DNA of 64,000 bases, taken from a virus. Position 1 is the stretch's first letter, and each line of letters starts with the position of its first letter. Under the pieces are notes generated by a model, which worked only from the letters and a program-made list of their open reading frames with translations, was not told the origin of the DNA and did no database searches. The stretch is taken from the IMG/VR virus record IMGVR_UViG_3300024264_000015, positions 1-64,000 of that record. One strand, written 5' to 3'. Shown here piece after piece: positions 260 to 27,146 of this stretch. Made by a program: the position numbers and the translations under genes.

Positions 260-295
260 ATGAAAAGAAAAAGGAAACCACATTTTCCTAGATGA
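260..295 (+). CDS. Possible leaderless 11-residue basic peptide
   Basis: The ATG at 260 is six bases after the -10 box, so it should be at or next to the transcript 5' end. The frame encodes 11 residues, MKRKRKPHFPR, and ends at TGA 293-295. A second short frame (296-364, 22 codons) begins immediately after. Neither is recognised. The peptide could be a leader peptide, or the ATG may be a by-product of promoter sequence shared with genuinely leaderless genes. A small hairpin (GAGGG 328-332 with CCCTC 342-346) follows before the first normal gene. Confidence 0.3.
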   Translation: MKRKRKPHFPR

Positions 296-378
296 ATGAG
301 TGTGGAGGTTATGTCTGAACATACACTGAGGGATGAAAATGCCCTCCCCAATTTAACAATATAACAAAGGAGAGCATT

Positions 379-600
379 ATGCCAATAAAATTTAAACCAA
401 GTGCAAAGAAATACGTCAGAGGCGTACCAGCAAGTAAATTACCTATGGAACACTTCTACATCAAAAACACACCAAAACAAGAGTTGTTTGAGTACATCAA
501 CGACAGAGGTTCAAACATGAAACCTAAAGTAAGACAGAAGTGTCTAAACGAACTAGTCCGCAGAGGTATAGTTATCGAGTGGAGCGAGGTGCAGTCATGA
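379..600 (+). CDS. Conserved phage protein of unknown function, 73 aa
   Basis: This is the first normal gene after the promoter at 225, with a strong ribosome binding site (AAGGAG) before its ATG. The product is small and basic. It opens with MPIKFKPSAKK and has a helical C-terminal half ending in LVRRGIVIEW, a pattern I associate with small conserved proteins of marine T4-like phages. No catalytic motif is visible. Its stop overlaps the next start as ATGA (597-600), so the two are probably translationally coupled. Confidence 0.75.
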   Translation: MPIKFKPSAKKYVRGVPASKLPMEHFYIKNTPKQELFEYINDRGSNMKPKVRQKCLNELVRRGIVIEWSEVQS

Positions 601-734
601 AATGGGGTGGTAAAGCAAAACACGTAAGCATAGTGAAGAAAACATCACAAGGCGATTCACATAGAAATATGTCCCTCAACAAGAACAAACACAAGAAGCG
701 TTCGTTCAAGAAGTACAGAGGACAGGGCAGATAA
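597..734 (+). CDS. Small very basic protein, 45 aa
   Basis: Start at ATG 597 overlaps the upstream stop by four bases. An in-frame TTG further upstream would overlap the previous gene far more and is less likely. The 45-residue product is rich in Lys and Arg and ends in HKKRSFKKYRGQGR, a tail reminiscent of conserved small phage proteins that may bind nucleic acid. The binding role is inferred from charge only. The stop overlaps the next start as TAATG. Confidence 0.7.
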   Translation: MKWGGKAKHVSIVKKTSQGDSHRNMSLNKNKHKKRSFKKYRGQGR

Positions 735-952
735 TGGGAATTGTAATTCAGTTTCCAGACAGGAAGAAATTACAACTCCTTGAACTACAGGAAGAACTCA
801 AGGTGCAGGAAGAAGAAATTCAAATGTGCCTTGACGACTTACAAGATTTAAACGAACATATAGTAGAGTTGACAATGGAGTACGAAACTCTGTTGAACCA
901 CTTATGTAAATTACAGGGCATTAAATTGCCTGAGGAAAGATTCAATGACTAA
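734..952 (+). CDS. Coiled-coil protein of unknown function, 72 aa
   Basis: The product begins MGIVIQFPDRKK and then runs as one long amphipathic helix rich in Leu and Glu (about residues 12-60), so it is predicted to form a coiled coil. It is acidic, unlike the preceding basic gene. No enzyme motif is visible. It starts on the stop of the upstream gene (TAATG) and its last codons overlap the start of the small membrane protein at 945. The role may be as an oligomeric scaffold or adaptor, but this is unknown. Confidence 0.7.
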   Translation: MGIVIQFPDRKKLQLLELQEELKVQEEEIQMCLDDLQDLNEHIVELTMEYETLLNHLCKLQGIKLPEERFND

Positions 953-1073
953 AAAAGCAAAACAATTAGAACAGCACATACGAGATATGAAGTATCGTAT
1001 GGAACTAGTAAGAACAATAGTGCCAGTATTAGTACTAATTCTACAGGTTTTTATACTTGGGAAAATACTATGA
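945..1073 (+). CDS. Small single-pass membrane protein, 42 aa
   Basis: A 42-codon frame starts at ATG 945, eight bases before the upstream stop, and ends at TGA 1071-1073, which overlaps the next start (ATGA). The N-terminal half is basic and polar. Residues 22-40 form one hydrophobic segment (LVRTIVPVLVLILQVFILG), giving a likely N-in single-pass protein. The tight overlaps on both sides support it as a real gene. It is unrecognised. Confidence 0.6.
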   Translation: MTKKAKQLEQHIRDMKYRMELVRTIVPVLVLILQVFILGKIL

Positions 1074-1348
1074 AGCAAGGCAGTATGCAGTATGACCAGT
1101 ATGGTCGTAAAAGAAAAGTAGGTCATCTCTACAAGAGTACAAAAGCGAAACCAAGTTTCGATGTACAGATGAAGAAAAAATTTAGAGAAGTGAGTGATAT
1201 CCCGAGTGCACCAGTGGGAGAATATACTGTGCCTAAGGATAACTCATACAAACAAGACATCAGTAAGCAATACACGGTATCGATTGCTTATAACAAAGGT
1301 GCATATCAAGTGATACCTAAAGGAGAAGTGAAAGACATTGGCAAATAA
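1070..1348 (+). CDS. Conserved phage hypothetical protein, 92 aa
   Basis: The product is 92 residues, basic in the N-terminal half and with a proline- and serine-containing middle. It starts by an ATGA overlap with the membrane protein before it. No domain is recognised and no signal peptide is seen. Similar small proteins with the same loose composition occur in early regions of marine myophages, from memory only. Its end overlaps the TTG start of the next gene by 11 bases. Confidence 0.65.
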   Translation: MKQGSMQYDQYGRKRKVGHLYKSTKAKPSFDVQMKKKFREVSDIPSAPVGEYTVPKDNSYKQDISKQYTVSIAYNKGAYQVIPKGEVKDIGK

Positions 1349-1595
1349 ATATAATAGACACTATGCAGTAGGCATGGAAGCGAATGGTAGTAAAATAAAG
1401 TCCATTAACTACCCTTTAGACACCGAACGTAAATTTCCACACTGGGATTGTCCAGCAAGGAACTGTAAACATATGTGGATAGAGTTAAAAAATGGCAATA
1501 TACTAAGAGATGATGAACTTATACTCAAAAAAGAGTGGGATATGATTGAGAAAGCAGAGAAGTTCATATCTGAAATTAGTGGAGGTGTAGCATAA
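1338..1595 (+). CDS. Small protein with a CxxxxC/H cluster, 85 aa, TTG start
   Basis: The best start is TTG at 1338, preceded by a purine-rich AGGAGAAG stretch. The first in-frame ATG (1374) would remove 12 residues. Residues around 38-45 read CPARNCKH, and a WIELKNG stretch follows. The cysteines and histidine could bind a metal, but there is only one pair. The C-terminal part is helical. Function is unknown. The stop overlaps the start of the MazG-like gene (TAATG). Confidence 0.65.
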   Translation: MANKYNRHYAVGMEANGSKIKSINYPLDTERKFPHWDCPARNCKHMWIELKNGNILRDDELILKKEWDMIEKAEKFISEISGGVA

Positions 1596-2029
1596 TGAGT
1601 AAGATTAATGATTACGCTAGGTTTGTTGACAGTTGCACATCTGAAACAAGTAAAGATACGACTAAAATGTGTGATAGATTGGACAAACTAATGGGAAACC
1701 ATACAGTGCAGAACGGTAAACTAATAGAGTGCGAAATCGACATGGCAAGATTGATGACTGCACTGATAGGAATGATGGCAGAGTCAGGAGAATTTGCTGA
1801 GGTAGTGAAAAAGAAAGTATTTCAGAACAATACACAGTTCACAAACGATGAGATTTTTCACATGAAAAGAGAGTTGGGTGACGTACTTTGGTACTGGGTT
1901 CAAGGGTGTATAGCACTTGGGTTTACTCCAGACGAAGTAATGGACGAGAACATTAATAAACTAGAGAGTAGATATCCGAATGGATTTGAAATCATACGCT
2001 CAGAAGTAAGAGCAGAGGGAGACATATAA
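1595..2029 (+). CDS. MazG-like nucleotide pyrophosphohydrolase
   Basis: A 144-residue all-helical protein of the MazG family, which hydrolyses (d)NTPs to monophosphate and pyrophosphate with Mg2+. The ExxE metal-binding part is seen in MAESGEFAEVVKK, and the second part in KRELGDVLWYWVQGC, followed by the family-typical LGFTPDEVMDENINKLESRYP. It is a single-domain phage-size protein. Such proteins in phages are thought to adjust nucleotide pools or alarmone levels, and that role is inferred here. It sits in the operon from the promoter at 225 and overlaps both neighbours by one base. Confidence 0.85.
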   Translation: MSKINDYARFVDSCTSETSKDTTKMCDRLDKLMGNHTVQNGKLIECEIDMARLMTALIGMMAESGEFAEVVKKKVFQNNTQFTNDEIFHMKRELGDVLWYWVQGCIALGFTPDEVMDENINKLESRYPNGFEIIRSEVRAEGDI

Positions 2030-2661
2030 TGGCAAATCATGTATATTTTACAATACACATAGAAGGTATTGAAGATGAGCAGTTCAATAACTCAGTAATA
2101 AGTGAGAAAAGGACTAGAAAGGACTATGATGGCAACCCCTATGAAGTAACAGAGTTGGTTGAGATAGAACATCAACCATTCATGTCCGAAGTAGGAAAAC
2201 GATTGGACAAAGATGGAGAGTTAGAAGACTCATACAACTGGTACTGTGAAGAAGTAGGTGCTAAATGGTGTTGCATTGACGAAATGCAAGATGGATATAT
2301 TGCTGGCTACAGTGCTTGGAGACAACCACATGAGTTAGTAATAAATATAATTGAATACTTTGCAAAGAAGTATGATACTGAAGTGACTGCAAGTATGACT
2401 TATGAAGATGAGTTTAGAAACTTCATGGGTAAGCAGTACTATGGTTCTGACAAGTGCGAAGAGGATGGTTGGTATGGACATGACGGAGACTACAGCGAGA
2501 CTGATGGTGATGAACTCTTAGAACAGTTTAAGGAATTATATCCTAGTATCGACACTGAAGATGAAGACTTTTGGAGTAACGAGTACGAAGTCGAAGGAGA
2601 AAAGATATATCCTAGTGAAGTGCTAGATGAATTAGCAGACCAATTCTGGGAGAGAGCATAA
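2029..2661 (+). CDS. DUF1281 (YubB ferredoxin-like)-related protein, 210 aa
   Basis: The protein opens MANHVYFTIHIEG and has the arrangement SYNWYCEEVGAKWCCID followed by a helix and SAWRQPHELV. This resembles the N-W-x-x-E-x-x-G-x-K-W pattern of the DUF1281/YubB ferredoxin-like family, found on plasmids and in phages. The second half is very acidic, with many Asp, Glu and Tyr. The function of the family is unclear. No catalytic motif is visible. The assignment rests on the pattern alone. Confidence 0.55.
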   Translation: MANHVYFTIHIEGIEDEQFNNSVISEKRTRKDYDGNPYEVTELVEIEHQPFMSEVGKRLDKDGELEDSYNWYCEEVGAKWCCIDEMQDGYIAGYSAWRQPHELVINIIEYFAKKYDTEVTASMTYEDEFRNFMGKQYYGSDKCEEDGWYGHDGDYSETDGDELLEQFKELYPSIDTEDEDFWSNEYEVEGEKIYPSEVLDELADQFWERA

Positions 2662-2906
2662 TGACGGAACATACAGACATAGTAGAAAAACGAAGACTCT
2701 ATCTAGAAGCAGAAGATTGGGGTAATAAAATATCCCAACACTACTGTACTAAAGGTGGTAGAGGAGACTTAGGTTTTGGAATGGGTTACTTTGTATATTA
2801 TAACAATGGAGCAGTACATAAACTAGAAGGAAAGAGGATAAGTATAGTGCAAGTTCCTAAGAGTATAGAAGAAGTCATTGACGACTACGGAAGGAGTCAA
2901 GCATGA
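2661..2906 (+). CDS. Hypothetical protein, 81 aa
   Basis: An 81-residue product with a charged N-terminal helix, a glycine-rich middle (TKGGRGDLGFGMGYFVYYNNG) and an acidic end. No family is recognised. It overlaps the upstream stop by one base and the next gene by an ATGA. Its position between the DUF1281-like gene and an HTH gene gives no firm hint about function. Confidence 0.6.
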   Translation: MTEHTDIVEKRRLYLEAEDWGNKISQHYCTKGGRGDLGFGMGYFVYYNNGAVHKLEGKRISIVQVPKSIEEVIDDYGRSQA

Positions 2907-3217
2907 TTAACTACACACAAGACCAAGTAGAGTATATAACTAACCAATATAGACTTAAACCTGATAGAGATACAGTAGAAAAACTAGCAGAAGAACTAGA
3001 TAAGAGTGTAAAATCGATTATAGGTAAACTATCAAGAGAAGGAGTCTATAGAAAGACTGAATATACAACCAAAGCGGGTGAGAAACCAGTCACGAAACTA
3101 GAAATAGTCCAAGAAATGGCTGACCTACTAGAAATACCAGTAGAAAAACTATTAGGACTAGAAAAATCACCAAAAACAGTACTAAAACTATTAAGAAATT
3201 CACTAGGAGAAGAATAA
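2903..3217 (+). CDS. Myb/SANT-like helix-turn-helix protein, 104 aa
   Basis: Residues 1-50 carry a three-helix pattern: YTQDQVEYITNQY, then DTVEKLAEELDKSVKSIIGKLSREGVY. The last part is the recognition-helix motif (S-x-x-S-I-x-x-K-L-x-x-x-G-V-Y) seen again in the proteins at 4136, 15521 and 21069. The C-terminal half is a second helical unit (LEIVQEMADLLEIPVEKLLGLEK). It probably binds DNA; the target is unknown. Start is by ATGA overlap with the upstream gene. It is one of at least four paralogous HTH proteins in the window. Confidence 0.7.
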   Translation: MINYTQDQVEYITNQYRLKPDRDTVEKLAEELDKSVKSIIGKLSREGVYRKTEYTTKAGEKPVTKLEIVQEMADLLEIPVEKLLGLEKSPKTVLKLLRNSLGEE

Positions 3218-3426
3218 TGAGATTATGTAAGTTAGTAAAAGCTGGAGAGAACATGAAAATCATAGGTGAGCATGGATTATATGCAGAAGTGATAGAGTTG
3301 TTCGAAAGTCCCAGCGGGTATAAAGCACGACTAAAGTTCGGAGATGATTGGAAAACTGAGCTAAGTGTGAAGCGTCTAAGAATGATACAAGACCCCAACG
3401 TGGTAAGAAGTCCTCATGCAATCTAA
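3217..3426 (+). CDS. Hypothetical protein, 69 aa, last gene of the first operon
   Basis: The product is 69 residues with alternating hydrophobic and charged positions, suggesting a small beta-barrel (AEVIELFESPSGYKARLKF). No family is certain. It overlaps the previous stop by one base (TAATG) and is followed 34 bases later by a strong intrinsic terminator, so it closes the operon that starts at the promoter at 225. Confidence 0.6.
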   Translation: MRLCKLVKAGENMKIIGEHGLYAEVIELFESPSGYKARLKFGDDWKTELSVKRLRMIQDPNVVRSPHAI

Positions 3427-3459
3427 AGGCTAAGGGACAAATTTACGAAAGTTACCTAT

Positions 3460-3484
3460 AACCCACTCTTGCAGTGGGTTTTTT
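3460..3484 (+). terminator. Intrinsic terminator of the first rightward operon
   Basis: A perfect stem AACCCACT (3460-3467) with AGTGGGTT (3473-3480) encloses a five-base loop CTTGC and runs into six T. It lies 34 bases after the last gene of the operon. Confidence 0.9.
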
Positions 3485-3633
3485 ATTGCCTCAAAAAAAT
3501 TTTGAATTGGCGAAAGTTTATAGAATTTTAGATAAGTTTTTAGTAATTGTTGATTAGATTGAAAGTTAATGGACTTTAGAGTTAAGTCCAGTTGATACTT
3601 GGTTGTATCTTGTTGATATTGATTATACAATTA

Positions 3634-3726
3634 ACACTCTGTTCTTGTCCCAGATTAGATGCTCAGCTGTCACTCTCGCTTACGCTTCGTTCCAGCTTCT
3701 CAGCATCAGTTAGGACTAACGAGTGT
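3634..3726 (-). ncRNA. Candidate structured small RNA (long interrupted hairpin)
   Basis: Five blocks pair in order across 93 bases: ACACTC 3634-3639 with GAGTGT 3721-3726, GTT 3641-3643 with AAC 3718-3720, GTCC 3647-3650 with GGAC 3713-3716, GATGCT 3658-3663 with AGCATC 3702-3707, and GCTG 3666-3669 with CAGC 3693-3696. That is 23 pairs broken by small internal loops, with a 23-base apical loop. A promoter-like element upstream on the reverse strand (3769-3797) suggests leftward transcription. No RNA family is recognised. It might alternatively act as a transcription roadblock between converging operons. Confidence 0.45.
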
Positions 3727-3768
3727 AATCGGTAGTTCGTATTGACTGTATATCAAATTTATGAATAT

Positions 3769-3797
3769 ATTTTATCACACTTTTTATCATAATGCAA
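3769..3797 (-). promoter_or_regulatory. Weak leftward promoter candidate
   Basis: On the reverse strand TTGCAT (3797-3792) is followed by 17 bases and TAAAAT (3774-3769). It lacks the shared upstream block of the strong promoters. It would start a transcript near 3762 that runs through the long hairpin. Confidence 0.35.
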
Positions 3798-3921
3798 GAA
3801 GTGTTTTTCGAAGGGGTATGATTTTGTTTGTTGTTTTGCCTTTAGCGAATGATAAAATATTTTCTTTTATGAGGGATAGTTGAGTTGTTATGTGATTTTG
3901 TTCTATTGATTTTCATGGAGG

Positions 3922-4149
3922 TCACGAACGTTTTGTAATTCTACGAAATCTCTCGCGTTCAAAGAGTTTTCGTGCCTCTAATTCTCGTGAACGCTTTCGA
4001 TAATTGTTCGTTTCATTTCTTTTAGCGTTGGGTTTTATGTAATATTTTCTGTTTCTGCACTCCTCTTTTATCCCAGCGTTATCACACTTTTTCCGAAAGA
4101 TTCGAAGTCCTTTTTCGAAACTCATTCCTTTTAACTCAACTTTTGGCAT
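3922..4149 (-). CDS. rpsU: Viral small ribosomal subunit protein bS21
   Basis: A 75-residue homologue of bacterial bS21. Family features are MPKVELKGMSFEKGLRIFRK, then KKCDNAGIKEECRNRKYYIKP and a long basic C-terminal helix rich in Arg and Lys. The start is ATG at 4149: it has an excellent ribosome binding site (AGGAGGG four bases upstream), and the bS21 fold begins there, so an in-frame ATG at 4239 is not the start. bS21 sits near the anti-Shine-Dalgarno end of 16S rRNA and helps initiation. Phage-encoded bS21 is known from marine phages. It could bias host ribosomes toward phage messages (inference). It is last in a leftward operon and overlaps the HTH gene by 14 bases. Confidence 0.9.
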   Translation of the reverse strand: MPKVELKGMSFEKGLRIFRKKCDNAGIKEECRNRKYYIKPNAKRNETNNYRKRSRELEARKLFERERFRRITKRS

Positions 4150-4312
4150 TTGCCCTCCTGTGAAAAGTCCATCCACGTTTTCGTAGATAGTATACTTGTG
4201 AGGCGATTTGTGACGTACTTCTGTCCAGCTGTTTTGCAATATCTTCTGTTGACATACGATTGTAGTGTCTTTTCAAAAAATCTTTTTCTACCATTGTCCA
4301 TGTTTTATTCAT
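4136..4312 (-). CDS. Miniature Myb-like helix-turn-helix protein, 58 aa
   Basis: A 58-codon frame from ATG 4312 to TGA 4136 overlaps the oxygenase gene upstream by eight bases and the bS21 gene downstream by 14. The product is almost only one DNA-binding domain: WTMVEKDFLKRHYNRM, then STEDIAKQLDRSTSQIASQV and YYLRKRGWTF. This is the Trp-first three-helix layout of the other HTH proteins in the window. Its place inside the bS21 operon suggests an autoregulator, but that is inference. Its short length makes it easy to miss. Confidence 0.7.
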   Translation of the reverse strand: MNKTWTMVEKDFLKRHYNRMSTEDIAKQLDRSTSQIASQVYYLRKRGWTFHRRANAKS

Positions 4313-4811
4313 AAATTGTTACCACCATCATTGTTCTATGTCCCACTTTCGGATAGTAATGAAAGTGAGTACGGTTTTTAAATAAAAGTGCTTTCCATTG
4401 CTCTGGATAGCAAACGTGTTCTATTTTGCCATCATCTCCAATTACAACGGTTGCACTCGTGTTATCGAGTGGTTGATTGAGACAAAGTAGAAAATTATAA
4501 TATTCTCCACTGTGGTCTCTGTGAGGTAAACATTTGACTTGTCCATTGGGAAAAGTATTGTTTATACGAAATGTTTCTATTTTATCTAGGTCTACTTCTT
4601 TTCCAAAGTGTTTTTGCCAAAAAGCATCGAGAACATCAATCCACTCTGTTTCGTGTTCATCAATTAGGTGCATTTTGTCAGCAACAAAGAAAGGACTCAG
4701 GTGAACTGGGTCAACGTTCCAAGGTAATAATCTAAATAGAGTTTGGTCAGTATAAGTAGTAATCTGCTCTTTTAGTTCTTTTGATAAGAAATTTTTATCC
4801 TCAATTATCAT
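4305..4811 (-). CDS. 2-oxoglutarate/Fe(II)-dependent oxygenase
   Basis: A 168-residue protein with the double-stranded beta-helix iron site. The H-x-D pair is H97 and D99 in LPHRDHSGEYYNF, the distal histidine is H149 or H151 (NRTHFHYY), and R159 in VGHRTMMVVT fits the 2-oxoglutarate-binding arginine. Such enzymes hydroxylate protein, nucleic acid or small-molecule targets; the substrate here is not known. It is second in a leftward operon with another oxygenase (11-base overlap) and bS21, which makes a translation-linked protein substrate possible but untested. Confidence 0.75.
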   Translation of the reverse strand: MIIEDKNFLSKELKEQITTYTDQTLFRLLPWNVDPVHLSPFFVADKMHLIDEHETEWIDVLDAFWQKHFGKEVDLDKIETFRINNTFPNGQVKCLPHRDHSGEYYNFLLCLNQPLDNTSATVVIGDDGKIEHVCYPEQWKALLFKNRTHFHYYPKVGHRTMMVVTIYE

Positions 4812-5340
4812 AGTAAAATGTTCCTACAAGTACTACTCTTATTCCTTTTTTGGGTAATAAAAATGTATGTTTCAGATTAGAGAAAAGAAGTGAAGCTCCT
4901 GCTTTTGCTGGAAACTTATGTTCTTTGCCTTCTTCATCAAAAACGATAGTAGACAATTCAGGATTATTTGTTATATAAGTAATCATACTATAACAGTTTT
5001 TCTGATTCCAATGAAAGTCTCTGTGTATATTGACATCTACATCTCTAGAATAGTTTACATTGATACAAAGTCTGTTAACGTAATCTGGTTTTGGCATACC
5101 CATCTTTTCTAGTATACCATACCATATATCTACCATCTGTTGTCTATCTTCTTCTATGTTTACTGGATAATCTCTTAAAGGTTCTCTTGCTGGTTCATTT
5201 TTAGTAATAAAATGAGATGCAAACATTCCAAGTTCATCATCATCTGTAAAATTTAAAGAGAATTGATACCTTAATTTATCAAAGAATAGCCCGAAATGCG
5301 ATTCCGTTATATTTAGTGTATTTTCTAGATATTTTATCAT
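4801..5340 (-). CDS. 2-oxoglutarate/Fe(II)-dependent oxygenase, leaderless start
   Basis: A 179-residue oxygenase with H106-R-D108 (NIHRDFHWNQ), distal H158 (NLKHTFLL) and R168 (KGIRVVLVGTFYY). The start is set at ATG 5340: an ATG at 5355 in the same frame lies upstream of the -10 box of the only visible promoter and would not be transcribed. ATG 5340 falls six bases after TATAAT, so the message is expected to be leaderless. It is the first gene of the leftward operon that ends with bS21. The substrate is unknown. Confidence 0.75.
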   Translation of the reverse strand: MIKYLENTLNITESHFGLFFDKLRYQFSLNFTDDDELGMFASHFITKNEPAREPLRDYPVNIEEDRQQMVDIWYGILEKMGMPKPDYVNRLCINVNYSRDVDVNIHRDFHWNQKNCYSMITYITNNPELSTIVFDEEGKEHKFPAKAGASLLFSNLKHTFLLPKKGIRVVLVGTFYYDN

Positions 5341-5346
5341 ACGAAT

Positions 5347-5375
5347 ATTATACAAAAATTTTTAATTGCTGTCAA
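5347..5375 (-). promoter_or_regulatory. Leftward promoter of the oxygenase-bS21 operon
   Basis: Reverse strand: TTGACA (5375-5370), 17 bases, TATAAT (5352-5347), with the shared upstream block AAAATAGTTC. The ATG of the oxygenase begins six bases after the -10 box. It is back to back with the rightward promoter at 5407. Confidence 0.9.
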
Positions 5376-5406
5376 GAACTATTTTTAGATATGTTATAGA
5401 TTATTC

Positions 5407-5435
5407 TTGACTTATGCTCGCAAAGTTGCTATAAT
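5407..5435 (+). promoter_or_regulatory. Sigma70-type promoter, TTGACT-17-TATAAT
   Basis: TTGACT (5407-5412), 17 bases, TATAAT (5430-5435). The start codon of the small membrane protein at 5442 is six bases further on. Confidence 0.85.
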
Positions 5436-5441
5436 ATATCT

Positions 5442-5588
5442 ATGAATGAAAATGATATATACTATTTATTTTTCCTAGTGATGTGTGTACATATTGCTTA
5501 CTCATTAGGAAAACAATTCGGAATACAAACCACGATAGACTATTTAGAAAAGGAAGGAATTTTAGAGTTCGATGACTCTGAAAAATAG
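5442..5588 (+). CDS. Leaderless small membrane protein, 48 aa
   Basis: A 48-codon frame whose ATG is six bases after a TATAAT box, so no room exists for a ribosome binding site. Residues 6-21 (IYYLFFLVMCVHIAYS) form one membrane segment. The C-terminal tail is acidic (DYLEKEGILEFDDSEK). The stop TAG at 5586-5588 lies inside the conserved block of the next promoter. I believe similar small proteins exist in marine phages, but no function is known to me. Confidence 0.7.
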   Translation: MNENDIYYLFFLVMCVHIAYSLGKQFGIQTTIDYLEKEGILEFDDSEK

Positions 5589-5591: not shown

Positions 5592-5620
5592 TTGACATCA
5601 AGGTTAATTTTTGATATAAT
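5592..5620 (+). promoter_or_regulatory. Promoter of the hsp20-lysis operon
   Basis: TTGACA (5592-5597), 17 bases, TATAAT (5615-5620), preceded by AAAAATAGTTC. Unlike its neighbour it has a long leader of about 70 bases before the first gene. Confidence 0.9.
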
Positions 5621-5699
5621 TATTTTGTAAGTGATAGTTTCACTTGCATATTGGTGCGTCTACCGAAAGGAGACGTGAATTATTTACTGAAAAGGAATT
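5621..5699 (+). promoter_or_regulatory. Structured 5' leader of hsp20
   Basis: Two hairpins are visible: AAGTGA 5629-5634 with TCACTT 5640-5645, and CGTCT-A-CC (5657-5664) closed by a GAAA tetraloop (5665-5668) on GG-AGACG (5669-5675). The second traps a GGAG. The ribosome binding site (AAAAGGA) just before ATG 5700 lies outside. The leader could stabilise the message or respond to temperature, as leaders of small heat-shock genes often do; this is inference. Confidence 0.45.
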
Positions 5700-6092
5700 A
5701 TGGAGAAAAATATGAGTATAGATTTAAGCAAATTTTGGCTTGGATTGGATATGCCCACATTACCGTCTTACACGGATGCAGCATATCCACGATATAACTT
5801 AATCGAAAAGGCAGGAGACTATCGTATAGAAGTCGCAGTGCCAGGATGGAGCAAAGATGAGTTGGAGATTGTTTTTGATAACAAAGAACTCCACATCAAG
5901 GGTAAAAAAGAAACAAAACTAGGAGAAGATGAGAATTTTATTCATCAAGGACTAAGTCTAAAATCTTTTGAACGAAGATTTATTCTAAACGCCGACCTAC
6001 AAGTAGAGAAAGTAAGTCTACAAGACGGATTGTTGACAATCACACTGTTACGAACTCCAGATTCCAAGAGAAAAATCTTGGAGATTAGTTGA
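5700..6092 (+). CDS. hsp20: Hsp20 small heat-shock protein
   Basis: A 130-residue protein with an alpha-crystallin domain at about residues 34-125: YRIEVAVPGWSKDELEIVFDNKELHIKG, then SFERRFILNADLQVEKVSLQDGLLTITL. It ends RKILEIS, close to the C-terminal I-x-I anchor that binds the edge of the domain. Hsp20 proteins hold unfolding proteins without ATP. Phage copies are common in marine T4-like phages, where a role in scaffolding or head assembly is suspected. A second ATG five codons later is possible. It has its own promoter and a structured leader. Confidence 0.9.
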   Translation: MEKNMSIDLSKFWLGLDMPTLPSYTDAAYPRYNLIEKAGDYRIEVAVPGWSKDELEIVFDNKELHIKGKKETKLGEDENFIHQGLSLKSFERRFILNADLQVEKVSLQDGLLTITLLRTPDSKRKILEIS

Positions 6093-11805: not shown

Positions 11806-11910
11806 ATGGAGTCGATGTGGAAACACTATTGCAAGTGGGTACGTAATATAGTTTATGTACCCATTAGCATGAGGTGTCCATATTGTAAGAAATCAGAAAA
11901 TAATACTTGA
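11806..11910 (+). CDS. Possible small CPYC protein, 34 aa
   Basis: A 34-codon frame with two ATGs near its start, a central hydrophobic stretch (VRNIVYVPISM) and RCPYCKK near the end. Its TGA (11908-11910) lies inside the TTGACA box of the next promoter. The CxxC could bind zinc. There is no ribosome binding site, so the call is weak. Confidence 0.3.
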   Translation: MESMWKHYCKWVRNIVYVPISMRCPYCKKSENNT

Positions 11911-11935
11911 CATATGCTTATAATTTTAGTATAAT
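11907..11935 (+). promoter_or_regulatory. Sigma70-type promoter, TTGACA-17-TATAAT
   Basis: TTGACA (11907-11912), 17 bases, TATAAT (11930-11935). The next ATG (11942) is six bases after the -10 box. Confidence 0.9.
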
Positions 11936-11941: not shown

Positions 11942-12100
11942 ATGAAAAATACAGAATACAACGAACACAAAACAGTTAATATGTGGAACTCAGAAACAAA
12001 AGAGTTTGAAACATACCATTACGGAGAGTGCAAACACTGTGGGACATCAATACAGTCAGACAATGGCGAATGTCCTCAGTATAAATGCTGGATTGCGTAA
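11942..12100 (+). CDS. Leaderless small cysteine-rich protein, 52 aa
   Basis: The ATG is six bases after TATAAT, so the message should be leaderless. The 52-residue product has a zinc-ribbon-like layout: C30-x2-C33 (GECKHCG) and C44-x4-C49 (GECPQYKCW), with histidines nearby. It may be a small zinc protein that binds nucleic acid or protein. The stop overlaps the next start as TAATG, so the pair is coupled. Confidence 0.65.
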   Translation: MKNTEYNEHKTVNMWNSETKEFETYHYGECKHCGTSIQSDNGECPQYKCWIA

Positions 12101-15467: not shown

Positions 15468-15496
15468 TTGACTCATGCTTAAAATTCTTGTATAAT
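15468..15496 (+). promoter_or_regulatory. Sigma70-type promoter, TTGACT-17-TATAAT
   Basis: TTGACT (15468-15473), 17 bases, TATAAT (15491-15496), preceded by AAAAAATAGTTC. A 20-odd base leader with AAGGA leads to ATG 15521. With the terminator at 16000-16032 it makes a single-gene unit. Confidence 0.9.
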
Positions 15497-16683: not shown

Positions 16684-16712
16684 TTGACAAATCCTTAAAA
16701 ATTCTGTATAAT
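16684..16712 (+). promoter_or_regulatory. Sigma70-type promoter of the ligase N-terminal gene
   Basis: TTGACA (16684-16689), 17 bases, TATAAT (16707-16712). The ligase ATG at 16719 is six bases beyond the -10 box. Confidence 0.9.
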
Positions 16713-16718: not shown

Positions 16719-17687
16719 ATGAATAAGACAGAATACCTAGAATTATGTAATCAGAAGTATGCAGAGGGTAATCCTATATTACCTGACGAAGTATACGATA
16801 GACTCGTAGAGAATACCGCATTAGAAACACAAGTAGGATATAAACCTCAAGACACATGCTTTCGCGGCTTTGCACCTCTAGATTCACGATTCAAACATCC
16901 TTACCCAATGTATTCATTACAGAAAGTCTTTATCGGAGAAGATAAAGAACCAGATTGGGATTCCAAACAACCACACATTATGACTGCCAAGTTGGATGGC
17001 GCAGCTGTGTCTATTACATACATAGATGGCGAACTAACACAGGCATTAACTCGTGGAGATGGCAGAGAAGGATTAGATATTACTGGAAAAATGAAAACTT
17101 TAGTACCAAATCAAATATGGAGTAAAGGACTGAAACAGATTACTGGAGAAGTCGTTGCACCAAAAGAAATACCAAACGCTAGAAACTATGCGAGTGGTGC
17201 TTTGAATCTAAAGGACTTAGAAGAATTTAAATCTCGTAATCTTACATTTATATCTTATGGTATTCAACCAGCAATTTGTGTTGATTGGATTGAAGATATG
17301 ACTATGGTAAAAGATATGGGATTTAACACTGTCACAGAAAGTGATTGGACTGAATTTCCTCACGATGGTAAAGTTGTAAGGGTCGACTCTAATATATATT
17401 TTGAAACATTAGGCCACACCTCACACCATCCAAGAGGAGCTTTCGCTCTGAAGACAAGACAGGCAGGAGTAGTTACTCGACTCTTAGATGTTGAATGGAA
17501 TGTCGGGAAGTCAGGTGCTGTTTCACCAGTCGCAATCTTAGAGCCATGTGTGATAGGAGAGGCAACAGTTAGCCGTGCCACCTTACACAATATCGGATAT
17601 ATCGAAGCACTAGACCTAGAGATAGGGTGTAATGTAGAAGTTATTCGTAGTGGAGAAATCATACCTCGAATTGTAAAACGAGTATAA
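16719..17687 (+). CDS. NAD+-dependent DNA ligase, N-terminal part (nucleotidyltransferase and OB)
   Basis: The 322-residue product holds a short Ia-type NMN-binding segment (LPDEVYDRL), the adenylation domain with active-site K91 in AKLDGAAVS, RGDGREG, and an OB-fold end (NVGKSGAVSPVAILEP, SRATLHNIGYIEALDLEIGCNVEVIRSG). It stops at the OB end. The zinc finger, helix-hairpin-helix and BRCT parts are in a separate gene at 20309. Two-gene NAD+ ligases are known in phage T5. The start codon lies at the expected transcript end, so the message is leaderless. A GIY-YIG-like gene follows after three bases. Confidence 0.85.
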   Translation: MNKTEYLELCNQKYAEGNPILPDEVYDRLVENTALETQVGYKPQDTCFRGFAPLDSRFKHPYPMYSLQKVFIGEDKEPDWDSKQPHIMTAKLDGAAVSITYIDGELTQALTRGDGREGLDITGKMKTLVPNQIWSKGLKQITGEVVAPKEIPNARNYASGALNLKDLEEFKSRNLTFISYGIQPAICVDWIEDMTMVKDMGFNTVTESDWTEFPHDGKVVRVDSNIYFETLGHTSHHPRGAFALKTRQAGVVTRLLDVEWNVGKSGAVSPVAILEPCVIGEATVSRATLHNIGYIEALDLEIGCNVEVIRSGEIIPRIVKRV

Positions 17688-20252: not shown

Positions 20253-20281
20253 TTGACATGAGGTTAAACTTTTTGTATAAT
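20253..20281 (+). promoter_or_regulatory. Sigma70-type promoter of the ligase C-terminal gene
   Basis: TTGACA (20253-20258), 17 bases, TATAAT (20276-20281), preceded by AAAAAAAGTTC. A short leader with GAGAGAG leads to ATG 20309, so this unit is not leaderless. Confidence 0.9.
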
Positions 20282-21865: not shown

Positions 21866-23227
21866 TTGACATTAGAAAGTGCATTACTTAAGCAAATACT
21901 TGCGAATGGTGATTTTAATACTTGGAACGGGTTAAAAGAACACTACTTCCCTGAAGGTGAATACCGAAAACTGTGGAAGATAGTAGACAAACACGTACAT
22001 AAGTATCATGACTTGCCTACATTTGAAGACTTAAAACTAGAGGTTCGTTCAAGAGAACTTCAGGAAAAGATATATGCTATTGAAACAGTAGAAACAGATG
22101 TTCCCTCAGAATTATTATTAGATTATCTAAAAAATCAATTTACACAAAGTGAGATTCTTACGAGAATCGAATCTTTTGTAGAAAACCAAATAGCTATCGG
22201 CGATGCTCGTGAGAACATTGACTTGTTGCAAGAGATTGTAGTACAAGTAGAAGATAGGGTAGAAACCAACGACGAAAACGAAAGTATGGATTCTATCGAG
22301 CTATTTGATAGTGAGGAAGATTACGCTAAGTATCTACCTCTGGGTCTTAATCACGAATATGATTTTGACTATAAATTCTCTCCCAAAGACCTGGTCGTTG
22401 TTGGCGGAAGTCGTGGTGGAGGTAAATCATTTACTTGTTGTAATGTTGCAGTATCGGCAGCCGAAAAAGGTAAGTCGTCTTTGTACTTTACAATCGAAAT
22501 GGAACCAAGACAGATTCTTCAAAGAGTCTGTGCTATGGCATGTAATATTCCTATCAAACGAATCAATACTAAAAATCTATCTCCTATGGAGTGGCATAAA
22601 GTAGCTGATTGGTGGGCAGGAAGATTCGAGAATGGAGATGAAGCTAGGAAAGGATTCAATGAACACGAAGATTTTGATAAGTTCCATTATCAGTTGACTC
22701 GTAATCCTTTGCGCACAGATGTTCCTCAAATAGACATCTACTATGACCCAAGTCTTACACTAGCTAAAATTATTAGTGTAGTAAGACAGAAGGTTGCGAA
22801 TACTCCAGACCTTGGCATAGTTATTGTGGATTACCTAAACCAAGTCAGACGCCACAACGCTCCCAGTCGTGGTGGTCAGTACGAATGGACTGAACAAATA
22901 GAGATATCCAAAGGGTTAAAATCACTAGCCCAAGAGAACAATGTCCTTGTTCTTTCAGCATTTCAAACAAACGAAAAAGGAGAAGCACGATTCGCCAAGG
23001 GTATCCTTGATGCAGTTGATGCTGCCTACAGTATTCAGCATTGGGGCGATACAGAACCAGCAATTAAGTTGAAATGTGATAAGATGAGAAATGGAAAAGT
23101 AGAAGGGTTTGTTTCTTCTATGAACTGGGATAGTTTGAGAATCGGCCCTCAGACTGAAATAGACCCAGACGAAAGAGCCGAAATGAAAGAGGCAATGAGT
23201 ACAGGAGAAAGCGCATATGACATTTAA
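21866..23227 (+). CDS. Replicative DNA helicase, DnaB/gp41-like
   Basis: A 453-residue RecA-fold helicase that unwinds DNA at the fork. The N-terminal half is helical (about 1-140). The Walker A is GGSRGGGKS with K187, and the Walker B region is LGIVIVDYLNQVRR, followed by ISKGLKSLAQENNVLVLSAFQTN. The start is TTG 21866 with GGGAG eight bases upstream; an earlier TTG at 21848 lacks a site. With the primase, polymerase and exonuclease downstream it forms the replisome set. Confidence 0.85.
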   Translation: MTLESALLKQILANGDFNTWNGLKEHYFPEGEYRKLWKIVDKHVHKYHDLPTFEDLKLEVRSRELQEKIYAIETVETDVPSELLLDYLKNQFTQSEILTRIESFVENQIAIGDARENIDLLQEIVVQVEDRVETNDENESMDSIELFDSEEDYAKYLPLGLNHEYDFDYKFSPKDLVVVGGSRGGGKSFTCCNVAVSAAEKGKSSLYFTIEMEPRQILQRVCAMACNIPIKRINTKNLSPMEWHKVADWWAGRFENGDEARKGFNEHEDFDKFHYQLTRNPLRTDVPQIDIYYDPSLTLAKIISVVRQKVANTPDLGIVIVDYLNQVRRHNAPSRGGQYEWTEQIEISKGLKSLAQENNVLVLSAFQTNEKGEARFAKGILDAVDAAYSIQHWGDTEPAIKLKCDKMRNGKVEGFVSSMNWDSLRIGPQTEIDPDERAEMKEAMSTGESAYDI

Positions 23228-23417
23228 GGATAAAATACAGAAAAGATTAGATGTATTACAATTCATGATGGAAAATAATATACACCTATCAGACCCCAAC
23301 GGGTGCATGGAATATACGCTAACTATCAGCAAATTTTGGTCAGTTCTCTCAGAAGAAGATAGAGATTATATCCAAGGATGTCAGTCTTCAATCGAAGAAG
23401 GATGGGAGTGGAAATGA
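23217..23417 (+). CDS. Conserved phage hypothetical protein, 66 aa
   Basis: A helical 66-residue protein with KRLDVLQFMMENNIHLSD and SKFWSVLSEEDRDYIQGCQSSIEEG. I recall this SVLSEEDRDYIQ pattern in marine T4-like phages next to replication genes. Function unknown. It overlaps the helicase end by 11 bases and the next gene by ATGA, so it is probably expressed with the helicase. Confidence 0.65.
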   Translation: MTFKDKIQKRLDVLQFMMENNIHLSDPNGCMEYTLTISKFWSVLSEEDRDYIQGCQSSIEEGWEWK

Positions 23418-23587
23418 TTTTGTACACAGAAACACAATTAAAAGTAGCTTATACAACGTATCTACAGAGTTTAATAGTATCAAACAGACAAGGAATAGAA
23501 GTACCGTTTCCTACACTAGAAGAATTTAGAAAGATTTATGAAGATGAATGGAATCAAAAATACAAGGAAATGAATGAGGGATTATAA
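23414..23587 (+). CDS. Small acidic protein, 57 aa
   Basis: Starts at ATG 23414 by ATGA overlap; an in-frame codon at 23378 would overlap more. A helical product (MILYTETQLKVAYTTYLQSL, LEEFRKIYEDEWNQKYKEM) with an acidic end. Unknown function. It overlaps the sulfotransferase gene by 14 bases. Confidence 0.6.
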   Translation: MILYTETQLKVAYTTYLQSLIVSNRQGIEVPFPTLEEFRKIYEDEWNQKYKEMNEGL

Positions 23588-24308
23588 TAAATTACTATTG
23601 TTAAGTCCTGGTAGAACAGGTAGTAGTAGATTGATGGGAGCTTTATGTGAAAGATATGGTTTAGGAGGAATTTCTGAGCCTTTTAACTGGGAACGTAGAT
23701 ACCAAAACATGAAAGTAGATGGATTCACTTTTCCAGAACGAGTTGAACATTGGAGAAATGTACCTGATAGAAAAGTAGTAAAATGTTTGTCTCATTATAC
23801 ACAGTTTCCAAATAATATGGCAAATGAAAGAATGGGCAAAGACCCTATGAGATTTTATCATGAAGTATATTTAAAACATCATGGTTTTCAAGAAAAGTTA
23901 CATTTCTATTTAAAATATATGAGAGAGTTTGATAGAACAATACTATTATCTAGACAAGATTTTGCAGATTGTTTTAGAAGTCATTTACTAGCTCAATATC
24001 ATAGAACTGCTTCTAGTAACTATGAATGGAGTTACAGTTCTTACTATGAAGATAGAGATGTTCCGTTTACTAAAGATTCTCAGTGGATTTTAAATTTATG
24101 TCTAGACTCTTTCAGATTAGTAGAAGAAGTATCTAGGCGTATGGAAATACCTATATTGTATTATGAAGATTTGTATACAGACGAAGAAAGATTTTTAAAA
24201 ACAAACAAAAAATTTAATTTAGGATTAGAGGATTACTATGAAAAAATGTTTAATCCTGAGTTAAGATTAAGATTACCAAAGGAGACACCATGGCGTACGA
24301 CAGAATAA
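23574..24308 (+). CDS. Sulfotransferase, Stf0-like
   Basis: A 244-residue PAPS-dependent sulfotransferase. The N-terminal phosphosulfate loop is LLLLSPGRTGSSRLMGAL, and the 3'-phosphate-binding part is RTILLSRQDFADCFRSHLLAQY. Stf0 enzymes sulfate sugars, such as trehalose in mycobacteria; here a glycan on the phage or host surface is likely (inference). It sits among sugar genes within the replication region, unlike the truncated relative at 15101. Confidence 0.75.
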   Translation: MRDYNKLLLLSPGRTGSSRLMGALCERYGLGGISEPFNWERRYQNMKVDGFTFPERVEHWRNVPDRKVVKCLSHYTQFPNNMANERMGKDPMRFYHEVYLKHHGFQEKLHFYLKYMREFDRTILLSRQDFADCFRSHLLAQYHRTASSNYEWSYSSYYEDRDVPFTKDSQWILNLCLDSFRLVEEVSRRMEIPILYYEDLYTDEERFLKTNKKFNLGLEDYYEKMFNPELRLRLPKETPWRTTE

Positions 24309-24775
24309 GTAGAGAAACAGCAGAACTAGTACCATTACCTCCACATACTTGGTATGTAAGAACGGTTGGATGGTTGCTAGAACAAGAAAAAGTAAAAGAG
24401 AACATACAGAATGTTCCAATAAATGAAAAGTTAAGGGAAAGTTTGGCAGAAGACGGAGTAAAATCTCCCATACTCTGTATGCCAAACTGGTACCCCATAG
24501 CAGGGAGTCAGAGGATGAGATGTCTTCAGGAACTCCCTGCCCTACATGGGCAAGAGATAAGAGTATGCCGATTCGATAAAGAATGGTGGTTAGTATTCTA
24601 TCTATGGGGTCAGACAGAAGAAAGAAACAGAATAGTAGCAATCTATTTCCAAATGCTAGAATTAGTATGGAAGTCAATGTATTACGAGGAGAATGGTGTA
24701 GACTCTATGGGAACAGATTATAAAGAGTTTGAAAAGATAGGCGATGAACTAGAAGGATGGAAACATAAACAATGA
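24290..24775 (+). CDS. ParB/sulfiredoxin-superfamily protein
   Basis: A 161-residue protein with a ParB-like nuclease-domain core: INEKLRESLAEDGVKSPILCMPNWYPIAGSQRMRCLQEL. In this superfamily the G-x-x-R region (AGSQRMRC) binds nucleotide. No HTH follows, so plasmid-type partition is not implied; phage members can be nucleases, modification enzymes or regulators. It overlaps the sulfotransferase by 19 bases and the epimerase by four. Confidence 0.65.
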   Translation: MAYDRISRETAELVPLPPHTWYVRTVGWLLEQEKVKENIQNVPINEKLRESLAEDGVKSPILCMPNWYPIAGSQRMRCLQELPALHGQEIRVCRFDKEWWLVFYLWGQTEERNRIVAIYFQMLELVWKSMYYEENGVDSMGTDYKEFEKIGDELEGWKHKQ

Positions 24776-25719
24776 GATATGTAATTACAGGAGGCGGAGG
24801 GTTTATTGGCTCTCACTTAGCAGAACACTTAAAAGATAGAGTGAATGATGAAATAGTTATTGTAGATAAAATATCTAACCACAGTAAAACTCACAACTTA
24901 AATACGAATGAGTACACTTACTACTTAGTTGATATAGCAGATGCAAATATAATGATGAAGATTTTACAGAAAGATGATGTAGTATTTCATCTTGCAGCTC
25001 AACCTCATGTAGATTTATCATACATCAGTCCTATGGAAACAACAATCAGTAATGTACTAGGAACACATAGTGTTTTAAACTCTTGCTTGAAAAATGAAGT
25101 AAAAAGTCTAACAGTTATGAGTACTGATGAAGTATATGGTTCTACAAATGTAATAGATGAGAATACAAAACTAGACCCAACTAATCCTTATAGTGCAACA
25201 AAAGCAGCTGCAGATATGTTAGTTAATAGTTTCAAACATATGTATCCTGACATGAAGATAAATACTCTAAGGTCTAATAATATAATCGGACCTCGTCAGT
25301 TTATAAGAAATATAATACCAAGGTTTTCTCTCCAAGCCCTAACGGGTAGGAATATAACTTTGCACGGCAAAGGAGAAGCTGAGAGAAGATATCTGTGGGT
25401 AAAAGATGCTGCAGAAGCTCTGTGGTTAATTTCTAAGAGTGACTACAATCACAAGATATATAACATCGGACATCCTGAAGTCTACTCTAACTTAGATATT
25501 GCAGAAATGATTTGCGACCACTTAGATATAGGACACGAAATAATACAAACAACAGAAGACAGAATATATAACGATACAATATATCCATATAATCCAACTG
25601 ATATTCAAAGAGACTTAGGTTGGAAACATTCATTAAACCCTGATATATCTATTCCAATTACAATAGATTGGTACAAAGACAATCTATCTTACTTCGAGGA
25701 GTACTATAATATACTATGA
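24772..25719 (+). CDS. NAD(P)-dependent nucleotide-sugar epimerase/dehydratase (RmlB-like)
   Basis: A 315-residue short-chain dehydrogenase/reductase of the extended type. The cofactor loop is GGGGFIGSHLAEHL (residues 7-20), and the active site is T118-D119-E120 with Y140-x3-K144 (STDEVYGS, NPYSATK). The T-D-E set points to dTDP-glucose 4,6-dehydratase-like chemistry. It would make a deoxy-sugar precursor for the glycosyltransferases in the window. The N-terminus coincides with an ATGA overlap. Confidence 0.85.
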   Translation: MRYVITGGGGFIGSHLAEHLKDRVNDEIVIVDKISNHSKTHNLNTNEYTYYLVDIADANIMMKILQKDDVVFHLAAQPHVDLSYISPMETTISNVLGTHSVLNSCLKNEVKSLTVMSTDEVYGSTNVIDENTKLDPTNPYSATKAAADMLVNSFKHMYPDMKINTLRSNNIIGPRQFIRNIIPRFSLQALTGRNITLHGKGEAERRYLWVKDAAEALWLISKSDYNHKIYNIGHPEVYSNLDIAEMICDHLDIGHEIIQTTEDRIYNDTIYPYNPTDIQRDLGWKHSLNPDISIPITIDWYKDNLSYFEEYYNIL

Positions 25720-26264
25720 GTGAGTATGAAAAATTAAATGGAGGTATGAGATTTGCCCCAGACCCGAAGTGGGTAAACAATAAGTTTAATCATCATTGGA
25801 TGGGTTTATGTCATTTAATAGCTAAGTTGCAAATACAGCAAGGAAAGATGATAGAGATAGGAACATATGCTGGAGAAAGTACATCAATGTTTGCCTCTAG
25901 TGGTAAGTTCATAAGTATTGATACGATTGACCCTTATTATTGGCCAGGTAGTTATGAAGTAGAAATGCAGTACAAAGTAAATGTTCGATATTGGGATTAT
26001 ATAAAACTACACAAACATTACAGTCAAGACATTCACAATAGGTTTGACAACAACCAATACGACTTTGTATATATTGATGGAGACCACAGCGGAGAAAATG
26101 TAGCAAGAGACATAAAACAATACTTTCCAAAAGTAAAACCTGGCGGGTATATCGGTGGACATGATTACAACAAACACCACTGGCCCGAAGTATGCGCTGC
26201 AGTAGATAACGTATTTCCTCAAGTTGATACGTTTGCAGATACAAGTTGGTTATGCCAAAAATAG
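25716..26264 (+). CDS. Class I methyltransferase (Methyltransf_24-like)
   Basis: A 182-residue SAM-dependent enzyme. The SAM motif is GKMIEIGTYAGESTSMFASSG, followed by ISIDTIDPYYW, YDFVYIDGDHSGENVARDI and KPGGYIGGHDYNKHHWP. This form occurs in methyltransferases working on sugars and small molecules. It follows the epimerase by ATGA, so it may methylate the sugar made there. The TAG stop (26262-26264) is part of the next promoter's conserved upstream block. Confidence 0.8.
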   Translation: MSEYEKLNGGMRFAPDPKWVNNKFNHHWMGLCHLIAKLQIQQGKMIEIGTYAGESTSMFASSGKFISIDTIDPYYWPGSYEVEMQYKVNVRYWDYIKLHKHYSQDIHNRFDNNQYDFVYIDGDHSGENVARDIKQYFPKVKPGGYIGGHDYNKHHWPEVCAAVDNVFPQVDTFADTSWLCQK

Positions 26265-26267
26265 TTC

Positions 26268-26296
26268 TTGACAAATCCTTAAAATTTTGATATAAT
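26268..26296 (+). promoter_or_regulatory. Sigma70-type promoter of the primase-polymerase unit
   Basis: TTGACA (26268-26273), 17 bases, TATAAT (26291-26296), preceded by AAAAATAGTTC. The primase ATG is ten bases after the -10 box, so the leader would be only about four bases. Confidence 0.9.
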
Positions 26297-26306
26297 ATAT
26301 TTAATT

Positions 26307-27146
26307 ATGATAGCAGAAGACTTATTAAGAGAGAAGAAAATTGATTATCGCATAAGCGGACAAGATGCCGTAGTGTCTTGCCTTAATCCAGAACATGATG
26401 ACAGTAATCCGTCTATGCGTATAGATAGGGTAACTGGCGTGTTCAATTGTTTCTCATGCGGTTATAAAGGTAATCTGTTTACATACTTTGGTGCACCTGC
26501 TTCTCCACTAGAAGTTCGTATGCACAGAATTAAAGAATCAATCAACAAAGTCAGGTCAGCAACTGTCGGTATCCAACTCCCAAAGGATAGACTATCGTGG
26601 AAAGGTGGTGGTATTCGGAATATTTCCGAAGAAACTCTCGCTAAATGGGATGCGTTCACATGGAACGTTCCTAAGTTTGAGAATCGCATCATCTTTCCGA
26701 TACGAGATATCACAGGCAAGACGGTGGCTTTAATAGGCAGAAGCATAGATGACTTCAATCCTAACAAATATTACATTTACCCTAACGGAGTGGAAATGCC
26801 TTTCTGTCCCGCTAAGGTAAAACCAATACAAAACAGAGTTATCCTTGTAGAAGGAATCTTTGATGCACTTAACTTATGGGATAAAGGGCTCAAGAATACT
26901 GTATGTTGTTTTGGTACACAGCAGGTAAACTGGGTTAAGCTTAGTTTATTAAAACTCCAAGGGATAACTGGTATAGATATCATGTTTGATGGAGATGAAG
27001 CAGGAAGGCAGGCTGGTGAGAAAGCCAAAGACCTTGCAGAGAAACTAGAGATGTCTGCAAGAGTAGTAAAATTACGAGATAACATAGACCCTGGCAACTT
27101 AACAAGACCAGAGATAGAAAGATTAAAGGAAAAATTATATGGCTAA
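26307..27146 (+). CDS. DNA primase, DnaG type (CHC2 zinc finger and Toprim)
   Basis: A 279-residue primase that makes RNA primers. The CHC2 zinc finger has C25, H30, C48 and C51 (CLNPEH, FNCFSCG). The Toprim part has VEGIFDALN (E182) and MFDGDEAGRQAG (D228, D230). It is smaller than DnaG, with no helicase-binding domain, which is usual for phage primases. The start is very close to the expected transcript end. It overlaps the polymerase gene by eight bases. Confidence 0.85.
   Translation: MIAEDLLREKKIDYRISGQDAVVSCLNPEHDDSNPSMRIDRVTGVFNCFSCGYKGNLFTYFGAPASPLEVRMHRIKESINKVRSATVGIQLPKDRLSWKGGGIRNISEETLAKWDAFTWNVPKFENRIIFPIRDITGKTVALIGRSIDDFNPNKYYIYPNGVEMPFCPAKVKPIQNRVILVEGIFDALNLWDKGLKNTVCCFGTQQVNWVKLSLLKLQGITGIDIMFDGDEAGRQAGEKAKDLAEKLEMSARVVKLRDNIDPGNLTRPEIERLKEKLYG

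Follow-up and report, generated by a model that had tools for sequence, protein, structure and literature searches.

Leaderless messenger RNAs (mRNAs) are established, also in phages, where the best-documented examples of leaderless translation are individual switch genes, cI among them. The cI mRNA of lambda is leaderless and carries a 5′ AUG (PMC4965119, PMC9031893), and the leaderless mRNA ends of cI and cro in phage PY54 were mapped by rapid amplification of cDNA ends (RACE) (PMC4488713). In bacterial genomes, Zheng et al. (2011) described TA-led genes, in which a −10-like box about 10–12 bp before the start is a sign of leaderless transcription (PMC3160421), and −10-adjacent open reading frames (ORFs) are known from Deinococcus-Thermus (PMC12340547). 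According to the paper on phage AR9, transcripts of phages often lack a leader, the leaders of AR9 itself being 26–491 bases long (PMC5312081). No systematic survey of phage leaderless genes was found in the literature searched, outside which lay most subscription journals and all preprints. Here, the first 64 kb (hereafter the window) of the 90,319 bp virus record IMGVR_UViG_3300024264_000015 is described, in which strong sigma70-type promoters are predicted to place the A of several start codons at the expected +1 position and so to yield leaderless mRNAs in this T5-like clade, a reading to which we assign a probability of about 0.87.

As in lambda cI and in PY54 cI and cro, a strong promoter lies directly before the ORF. 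Those, however, are switch genes of temperate phages for which the mRNA start at the AUG has been established, whereas here several genes are concerned, including a ligase and a primase, and the 5′ ends are predicted from sequence. The window resembles the TA-led and −10-adjacent genes in that TATAAT begins exactly 12 bp before the start, but these belong to cellular genomes, while the present promoters are those of phages with a full −35 box that also use leaders. The AR9 leaders likewise differ from starts spaced six bases from the box. What appears to be new is the predicted leaderless state of several genes of replication type within a single phage clade. The phages of this group are uncultured and come mostly from the sea, and the present one is assumed to be lytic by its likeness to T5.

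Sigma70 transcripts start about seven bases past the −10 box. In the proposed mechanism, RNA polymerase, presumably that of the host, would produce mRNAs starting with AUG from a TATAAT six bases upstream, and these messages would be recognized through their 5′-terminal AUG rather than through a Shine–Dalgarno (SD) sequence, probably by 70S ribosomes, as for lambda cI. The clade would thereby mix two routes, one leaderless or near-leaderless (at most 10 bases) and one with leaders of 19–33 bases, with almost nothing between. The proposal is carried by the promoters, by an exact spacing that persists although the intervening bases vary, by the absence of SD sequences, and by the N-terminus of LigA; from these we infer the 5′ end at the AUG, the entry of 70S ribosomes, and any regulatory purpose.

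Promoters and start codons in the window

A preliminary description had listed five sites with ATG six bases after TATAAT (260, 5340 reverse, 5442, 11942, and 16719), and all five are present, with TTGAC[A/T] 17 bp ahead of the box in each case. The pattern TATAATN6ATG has exactly five matches on both strands of the window (248+, 5352−, 5430+, 11930+, and 16707+), while dinucleotide shuffles of the window gave a mean of 1.79 and at least five matches in 2 of 100 cases, so that the bare count is only mildly unusual. The strength of the case comes from the context, namely, the TTGAC[A/T] box 17 bases before each site. Of the 350 distinct consensus promoters collected from the window and from related loci, 103 have an ATG at offset 6, compared with approximately 2.7% per offset at offsets 35–59; at this rate, five of 12 promoters with an ATG at 6 would occur by chance with p 9e-6 and five of 14 with p 2e-5. 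The exact sequence TTGACA-N17-TATAAT marks 11 promoters in the whole record. The primase ATG (26307) was likewise confirmed ten bases past its box (TATAAT-N10-ATG), and this gene is by its sequence near-leaderless, with an expected start four bases before the ATG.

The further claim that there is no room for a ribosome binding site was borne out at the sites spaced 6, where TATAAT itself fills the SD place, covering positions −12 to −7 as counted from the ATG. No SD sequence precedes the start of these genes, and it can be ruled out regardless of the real transcript start because the promoter occupies its position. The named leaderless genes all begin with ATG, the only start codon scanned in the census given below (GTG and TTG were left aside).

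The arrangement had also been called systematic, which is true in part. Four sites hold up by sequence as leaderless genes (the oxygenase-like 5340 reverse, 5442, 11942, and LigA at 16719), but 260 does not, and other promoters of the same phage have leaders, namely, those at 5615, 15491, 20276, 39582, 59080 (−), and 89060 (−, beyond the window), with leaders of 20–79 bases, most of which contain an SD-like stretch (weak at 20276). SD matches of at least 5 bases were found before 31 of 91 window genes compared with 11 of 91 in shuffled sequence, using a greedy gene set made for this analysis.

Conservation of the spacing and rival explanations

The LigA gene was followed in 80 loci kept from 164 IMG/VR relatives, and TTGAC[A/T]N17TATAATN6ATG is present at all 80, although the six bases separating box and ATG come in seven versions. 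The start codon of LigA is well supported as the genuine N-terminus because both the PHROG 3359 profile (residues 4–322 on positions 5–323 of 325) and the alignments to T5-like LigA proteins (from query residue 1, 2, or 5 among the matches listed) begin at the first residues. An internal LigA start was considered and rejected, as there is no early Met and the profile match begins already at residue 4; internal starts in the oxygenase ORF and in those at 5442 and 11942 were also rejected, with no SD sequence seen by eye ahead of the next in-frame Met.

The other families show the same distance to different degrees. It is 6 in all five distinct relatives of the oxygenase-like gene (alignment A2, six sequences), in 21 of the 25 distinct promoters of the Cys-rich cluster (7 in two and 8 in two), in 12 of 13 distinct promoters of the helix-turn-helix (HTH) family with eleven hexamers, and in all four of the L364-like family (terminase small subunit, PHROG 3802). 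The 15 distinct relatives in the family of the 5442 gene divide into 11 with a distance of 6–7 bases and four with one of 19–20 bases and GGAGA SD leaders; the two routes thus interchange at one gene. For the primase, TATAATN10ATG was found in 72 of 79 loci (79 of 80 were examined, L091 being dropped because its match begins at residue 8), TATACT at equal distance in three, and an altered box in one, and the three remaining loci differ from each other, with the ATG at 8 bases, at 9 bases, and at 30 bases behind an AAGGAA leader.

A census took in 252 loci besides the window, with promoters deduplicated on approximately 95 bases and a sample weighted to the families used as queries (LigA, primase, oxygenase, and the 379 ORF). 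In 256 of the 350 distinct promoters, an ATG 4–59 bases past the box opens an ORF of no fewer than 30 codons, and its distance is at most 10 in 147, 11–18 in one, and 19–33 in 85. A distance of exactly 6 was found in 91 sequences. These belong to 14 of the 44 gene families, and in 10 of the 14 at least two distinct promoters stand at 6; all 30 distinct LigA promoters are among them. Synonymous differences are lower in codons 2–9 than in codons 40–99 of LigA (0.14 vs. 0.31) and of the oxygenase (0.05 vs. 0.29, five sequences) and are unreduced in codons 2–9 of the leadered genes 15521 (0.41) and LigB (0.38). These values (from 37 of 80 LigA and 35 of 80 primase loci, hand-picked, of which 32 and 34 distinct were used) are descriptive because the sequences are related.

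Pattern scans of IMG/VR compared a box-to-ATGA spacing of 6 with a control of 13; the matches listed are not random samples, and the following results hold among them. At spacing 6, at least 60 codons are open in 93 of 129 distinct matches, which form 62 protein clusters, compared with 24 of 119 at spacing 13 (Fisher p 9e-17) and 18.5% for a random ATGA. In the control-scan loci, with the matched site removed, offset 6 is the commonest single distance (13 of 148 strong promoters), and the same 148 promoters have a broad peak at 20–36 bases. This suggests that leaderless genes, as judged by their spacing, are a recurrent minority class in phages. Hand-picked spacing-6 examples with PHROG names include a primase, an exonuclease, a clamp loader, thymidylate synthases, and a helicase. 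In a random draw of cluster representatives of at least 100 amino acids, the best PHROG concerned DNA, RNA, or nucleotides in nine of 20 leaderless and four of 20 leadered cases, an excess of replication functions that is not significant in this draw (one-sided p 0.09), and any PHROG match was obtained for 16 of 20 compared with nine of 20 (p 0.02).

The cultured T5-like phages (Demerecviridae) share with this phage a split NAD ligase and a related primase (PHROG 3359 and 3498, 47), and a promoter of the TATAAT type likewise stands before the ligA of T5 and of Eps7. T5-like phages top the LigA and primase matches listed, with all 1172 and 1003 matches to phage records below 60% identity. In T5, 34 of 144 annotated starts in the first 100 kb have a promoter match within 60 bases (mismatch limit 3; at least T5.134 and the gene cut at 100 kb left out), at distances of 25–57 bases except for weak matches at 0 and 14, with ligA at 31. 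In pVp-1, 13 of 75 annotated starts in the first 50 kb have one (mismatch limit 2), at 30–53 bases; its ligA promoter does not satisfy this limit, but direct reading of the sequence shows TATAAT 26 bases before the start and AAGGAG between. The ligA of Eps7, read by eye, is also leadered, and the SD sequences in the leaders of the three phages were judged by eye. None of the 34 T5 and 13 pVp-1 starts lies at 4–12 bases. The parts of T5 and pVp-1 tested differ from the present phage in having no leaderless gene, and the ligA of T5, Eps7, and pVp-1 differs in having a leader of 26–31 bases, while here it is leaderless by sequence.

These observations bear on two other explanations. The arrangement might have arisen by chance in an AT-rich genome, in which 1.79 matches per window are expected and TATAAT itself is not enriched (109 vs. 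100.8), yet chance does not explain the −35 box at all five sites, the layout kept at every one of the 80 LigA loci, or the difference from the spacing control in IMG/VR (p ~9e-17), and is scarcely credible; conservation refutes it for four of the five sites, and it could still account for the ATG at 260. Alternatively, the ATGs may be real but mostly translated from longer read-through transcripts, independently of SD sequences and in A/U-rich surroundings, the position of the promoter being incidental compaction. Many ORFs do lie close together in runs, and the surroundings of the ATGs are A/U-rich, but such compaction predicts neither the exact spacing of 6 and the near-empty range of 11–18, nor the spacing kept despite changed bases, nor the spacing peak in other virus contigs among the matches listed, and we consider it improbable.

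Several points weigh against leaderless transcription from the spaced ATG. The ATG of the 35264 ORF abuts TATAAT and does not fit a spacing of 6, and sigma70 starts can shift by 1–2 bases. Initiation at an A would favor a pyrimidine just before it, and a pyrimidine precedes the ATG in 91% of the 93 long-ORF cases listed; this is not discriminating because the 27 short-ORF matches at spacing 6 have one in 85%. Synonymous differences in the primase are hardly lowered (0.36 in codons 2–9 vs. 0.40). The clustering joined other proteins to that of the 15521 gene, and seven distinct promoters of this cluster, all with the ATG at 9 bases, lead into such proteins, so that some of the 147 short-distance cases are loosely assigned. 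Finally, the ATG at 260 is kept in 10 of 17 aligned leaders and is ATA or ATC in seven, and this site is therefore not a conserved leaderless gene.

Table 1. Promoters, genes, and the leader discussed in the text (window coordinates)
Feature	Position	Strand	Remarks
Promoter TTGACA-N17-TATAAT	5347..5375	−	Six bases ahead of ATG at 5340
Predicted leaderless gene 1, 179 aa, oxygenase-like	4801..5340	−	Invariant HxD...H...R
Promoter TTGACT-N17-TATAAT	5407..5435	+	Six bases ahead of ATG at 5442
Predicted leaderless gene 2, 48 aa, hydrophobic	5442..5588	+	Membrane label by eye
Promoter TTGACA-N17-TATAAT	11907..11935	+	Six bases ahead of ATG at 11942
Predicted leaderless gene 3, 52 aa Cys-rich protein	11942..12100	+	
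Promoter TTGACA-N17-TATAAT	16684..16712	+	Six bases ahead of ligA
Predicted leaderless gene 4, LigA, N-terminal part of split NAD-dependent DNA ligase	16719..17687	+	PHROG 3359
Promoter TTGACA-N17-TATAAT	26268..26296	+	Ten bases ahead of primase ATG
Near-leaderless DNA primase	26307..27146	+	Expected leader ~4 bases
Leadered contrast, promoter of 15521 gene (PHROG 1725, DNA-binding protein)	15468..15496	+	ATG at 24, AAGGAAA
Leadered contrast, promoter of LigB (20309)	20253..20281	+	ATG at 27; purine-rich GAGAGAG, weak SD
Leadered contrast, promoter of glutaredoxin gene (39608)	39559..39587	+	ATG at 20, GGAG in leader
Exception, promoter of 35264 ORF	35235..35263	+	ATG directly after −10
Promoter of 260 site	225..253	+	Rejected as leaderless gene
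Structured 5′ leader	254..378	+	Hairpin, loop pseudoknot, two hairpins; contains ATG 260
73 aa ORF with SD	379..600	+	Gene served by 254–378 leader
Second ORF of oxygenase-headed run	4305..4811	−	Oxygenase-like by eye only; no family match
Small HTH-like protein	4139..4312	−	Best PHROG 323 (D5-like regulator), E 3.5e-7
Phage ribosomal protein bS21	3922..4149	−	Own strong SD (CAGGAGGGCAAATG); last gene of oxygenase-headed run

The invariant residues of the 5340 protein are what we take to be the 2-oxoglutarate/Fe(II) oxygenase motif, and its label rests on this motif; the protein has no Pfam or PHROG match. A AAAATAGTTC-like stretch is kept just 5′ of many −35 boxes (e.g., window 215–224 and 26258–26267), occurring at leaderless and leadered promoters alike, and a C precedes TTGAC in 93% and 91% of them, respectively. 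Two more promoter-like sites lie beyond the window at G000:C1:84064-84092 (−) and 89060-89088 (−), the latter with a 45-base leader before the first ORF. The HSP20-like chaperone gene (PF00011; window 5592-6092, +) has a 79-base leader to its ATG that varies in relatives. The 35264 ORF is a conserved protein of 130 amino acids (PHROG 4258; window 35235-35656, +), whose relatives have a second ATG 27 bases past the box in nine of 10 distinct cases, where the window phage has ATA. The window contains no transfer RNA and no Rfam family at gathering score. Megablast of window positions 15000-38000 (23,001 bases) against 50,697 phage records gave no match, and a host search by genome contig scans with LigA and HSP20 found no relative.

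The folded leader at position 260

The preliminary description had also counted the tiny peptide at 260 among the leaderless genes, a claim that was rejected, as its ATG, variable among relatives, lies inside a folded leader. The region 254–378 looks, by its sequence, like a conserved folded leader of the SD-led gene of 73 amino acids. In the alignment of 17 leaders, 99.7% of 323 cells are paired, 42 of them changed on both sides, while slid versions of the structure gave 37–59%; the paired percentage leans toward structure because the structure was named by eye on these same sequences. Of 500 shuffles, none reached the number of paired cells, the number of double-change cells, or the covariation score, but 43 equaled or exceeded the count of pairs that show a double change (8), and 499 did so for the number of further pair types. 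The alignment was drawn from 60 viewed of 80 loci of the 379 ORF, leaving out loci with no promoter within 190 bases as well as L209 (short leader) and L171 (like the window). The pseudoknotted leader with its covariation is common to window 254-378 (+) and relatives L176-L212. It matched no Rfam family at gathering score, with sub-threshold matches only at 230–400.

In some Escherichia coli mRNAs, an upstream AUG (uAUG) at the very 5′ end of an SD-led message has been described (PMC4965119). The ATG at 260, and only this one, may act in the same way by binding 70S ribosomes and tuning the downstream gene or the leader, for which we see about even odds; the folded leader with covariation and the presence of the ATG in 10 of 17 relatives are in favor of it, and the ATG is lacking in seven, so that it may be without any role.

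Phage bS21 and the significance of leaderless starts

Phage-encoded bS21 has been proposed to redirect ribosomes to phage mRNA (PMC9723584; also PMC6375957). A phage copy of bS21 is encoded here too (PF01165 match at 3991-4131, −, 41.2 bits vs. a cut-off of 27), and the difference from the known phage bS21 of PMC9723584, whose main text has 0 occurrences of “leaderless”, is that the bS21 run of the present phage starts with a predicted leaderless gene. The order of the run is the oxygenase-like gene, the second ORF, the HTH gene, and then bS21. The pair of HTH-like small protein and bS21 (window 3922-4312, −) recurs in relatives behind a leaderless start, and in many of them the gene before bS21 is an HTH gene that itself has its ATG 6–8 bases past a −10 box. 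The window and its relatives gave 29 bS21-like matches, counted once per locus and without removal of overlapping contigs. Of these, 28 lie no more than 1.6 kb downstream of a strong promoter of the same orientation, and for 26 an ATG stands 6–8 bases past the box of that promoter.

The preliminary description had suggested that the leaderless starts are possibly timed with changes in ribosomes such as viral bS21. What stood of this is the anatomy, namely, a bS21 gene in a leaderless-headed run, and a general link is not favored by the IMG/VR loci. The gene was recognized by the motif script in three of 12 other bS21 loci, of which two lack a leaderless head promoter within the short flank covered and one (L504, of the HTH type) has it. 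bS21 was found in eight of 50 spacing-6 and four of 50 control records, with lengths unmatched and 50 of 119 loci taken for each among those listed. The position of bS21 behind leaderless heads may simply reflect how frequent such heads are in the clade. In Flavobacterium, loss of bS21 was described to weaken initiation on SD-less mRNAs and to increase translation of the SD-led rpsU (PMC9976891). By the same logic, bS21 and the leaderless genes could form one circuit, in which bS21 would enter host ribosomes, lower their use of SD sequences, and so favor the leaderless mRNAs of the phage, although we regard this as rather unlikely. If it were true, bS21 would be made from an SD-led distal cistron of a leaderless-headed operon and would damp its own strong-SD cistron.

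Coming back to leaderless transcription from precisely spaced promoters, a ligase gene that is leadered in T5, Eps7, and pVp-1 stands in this clade at a predicted 5′-terminal AUG with exact spacing, and several other genes are arranged in this way. Gene finders that rely on SD sequences may misplace such starts, and the clade would offer many natural test cases for when ribosomes accept leaderless messages during infection.

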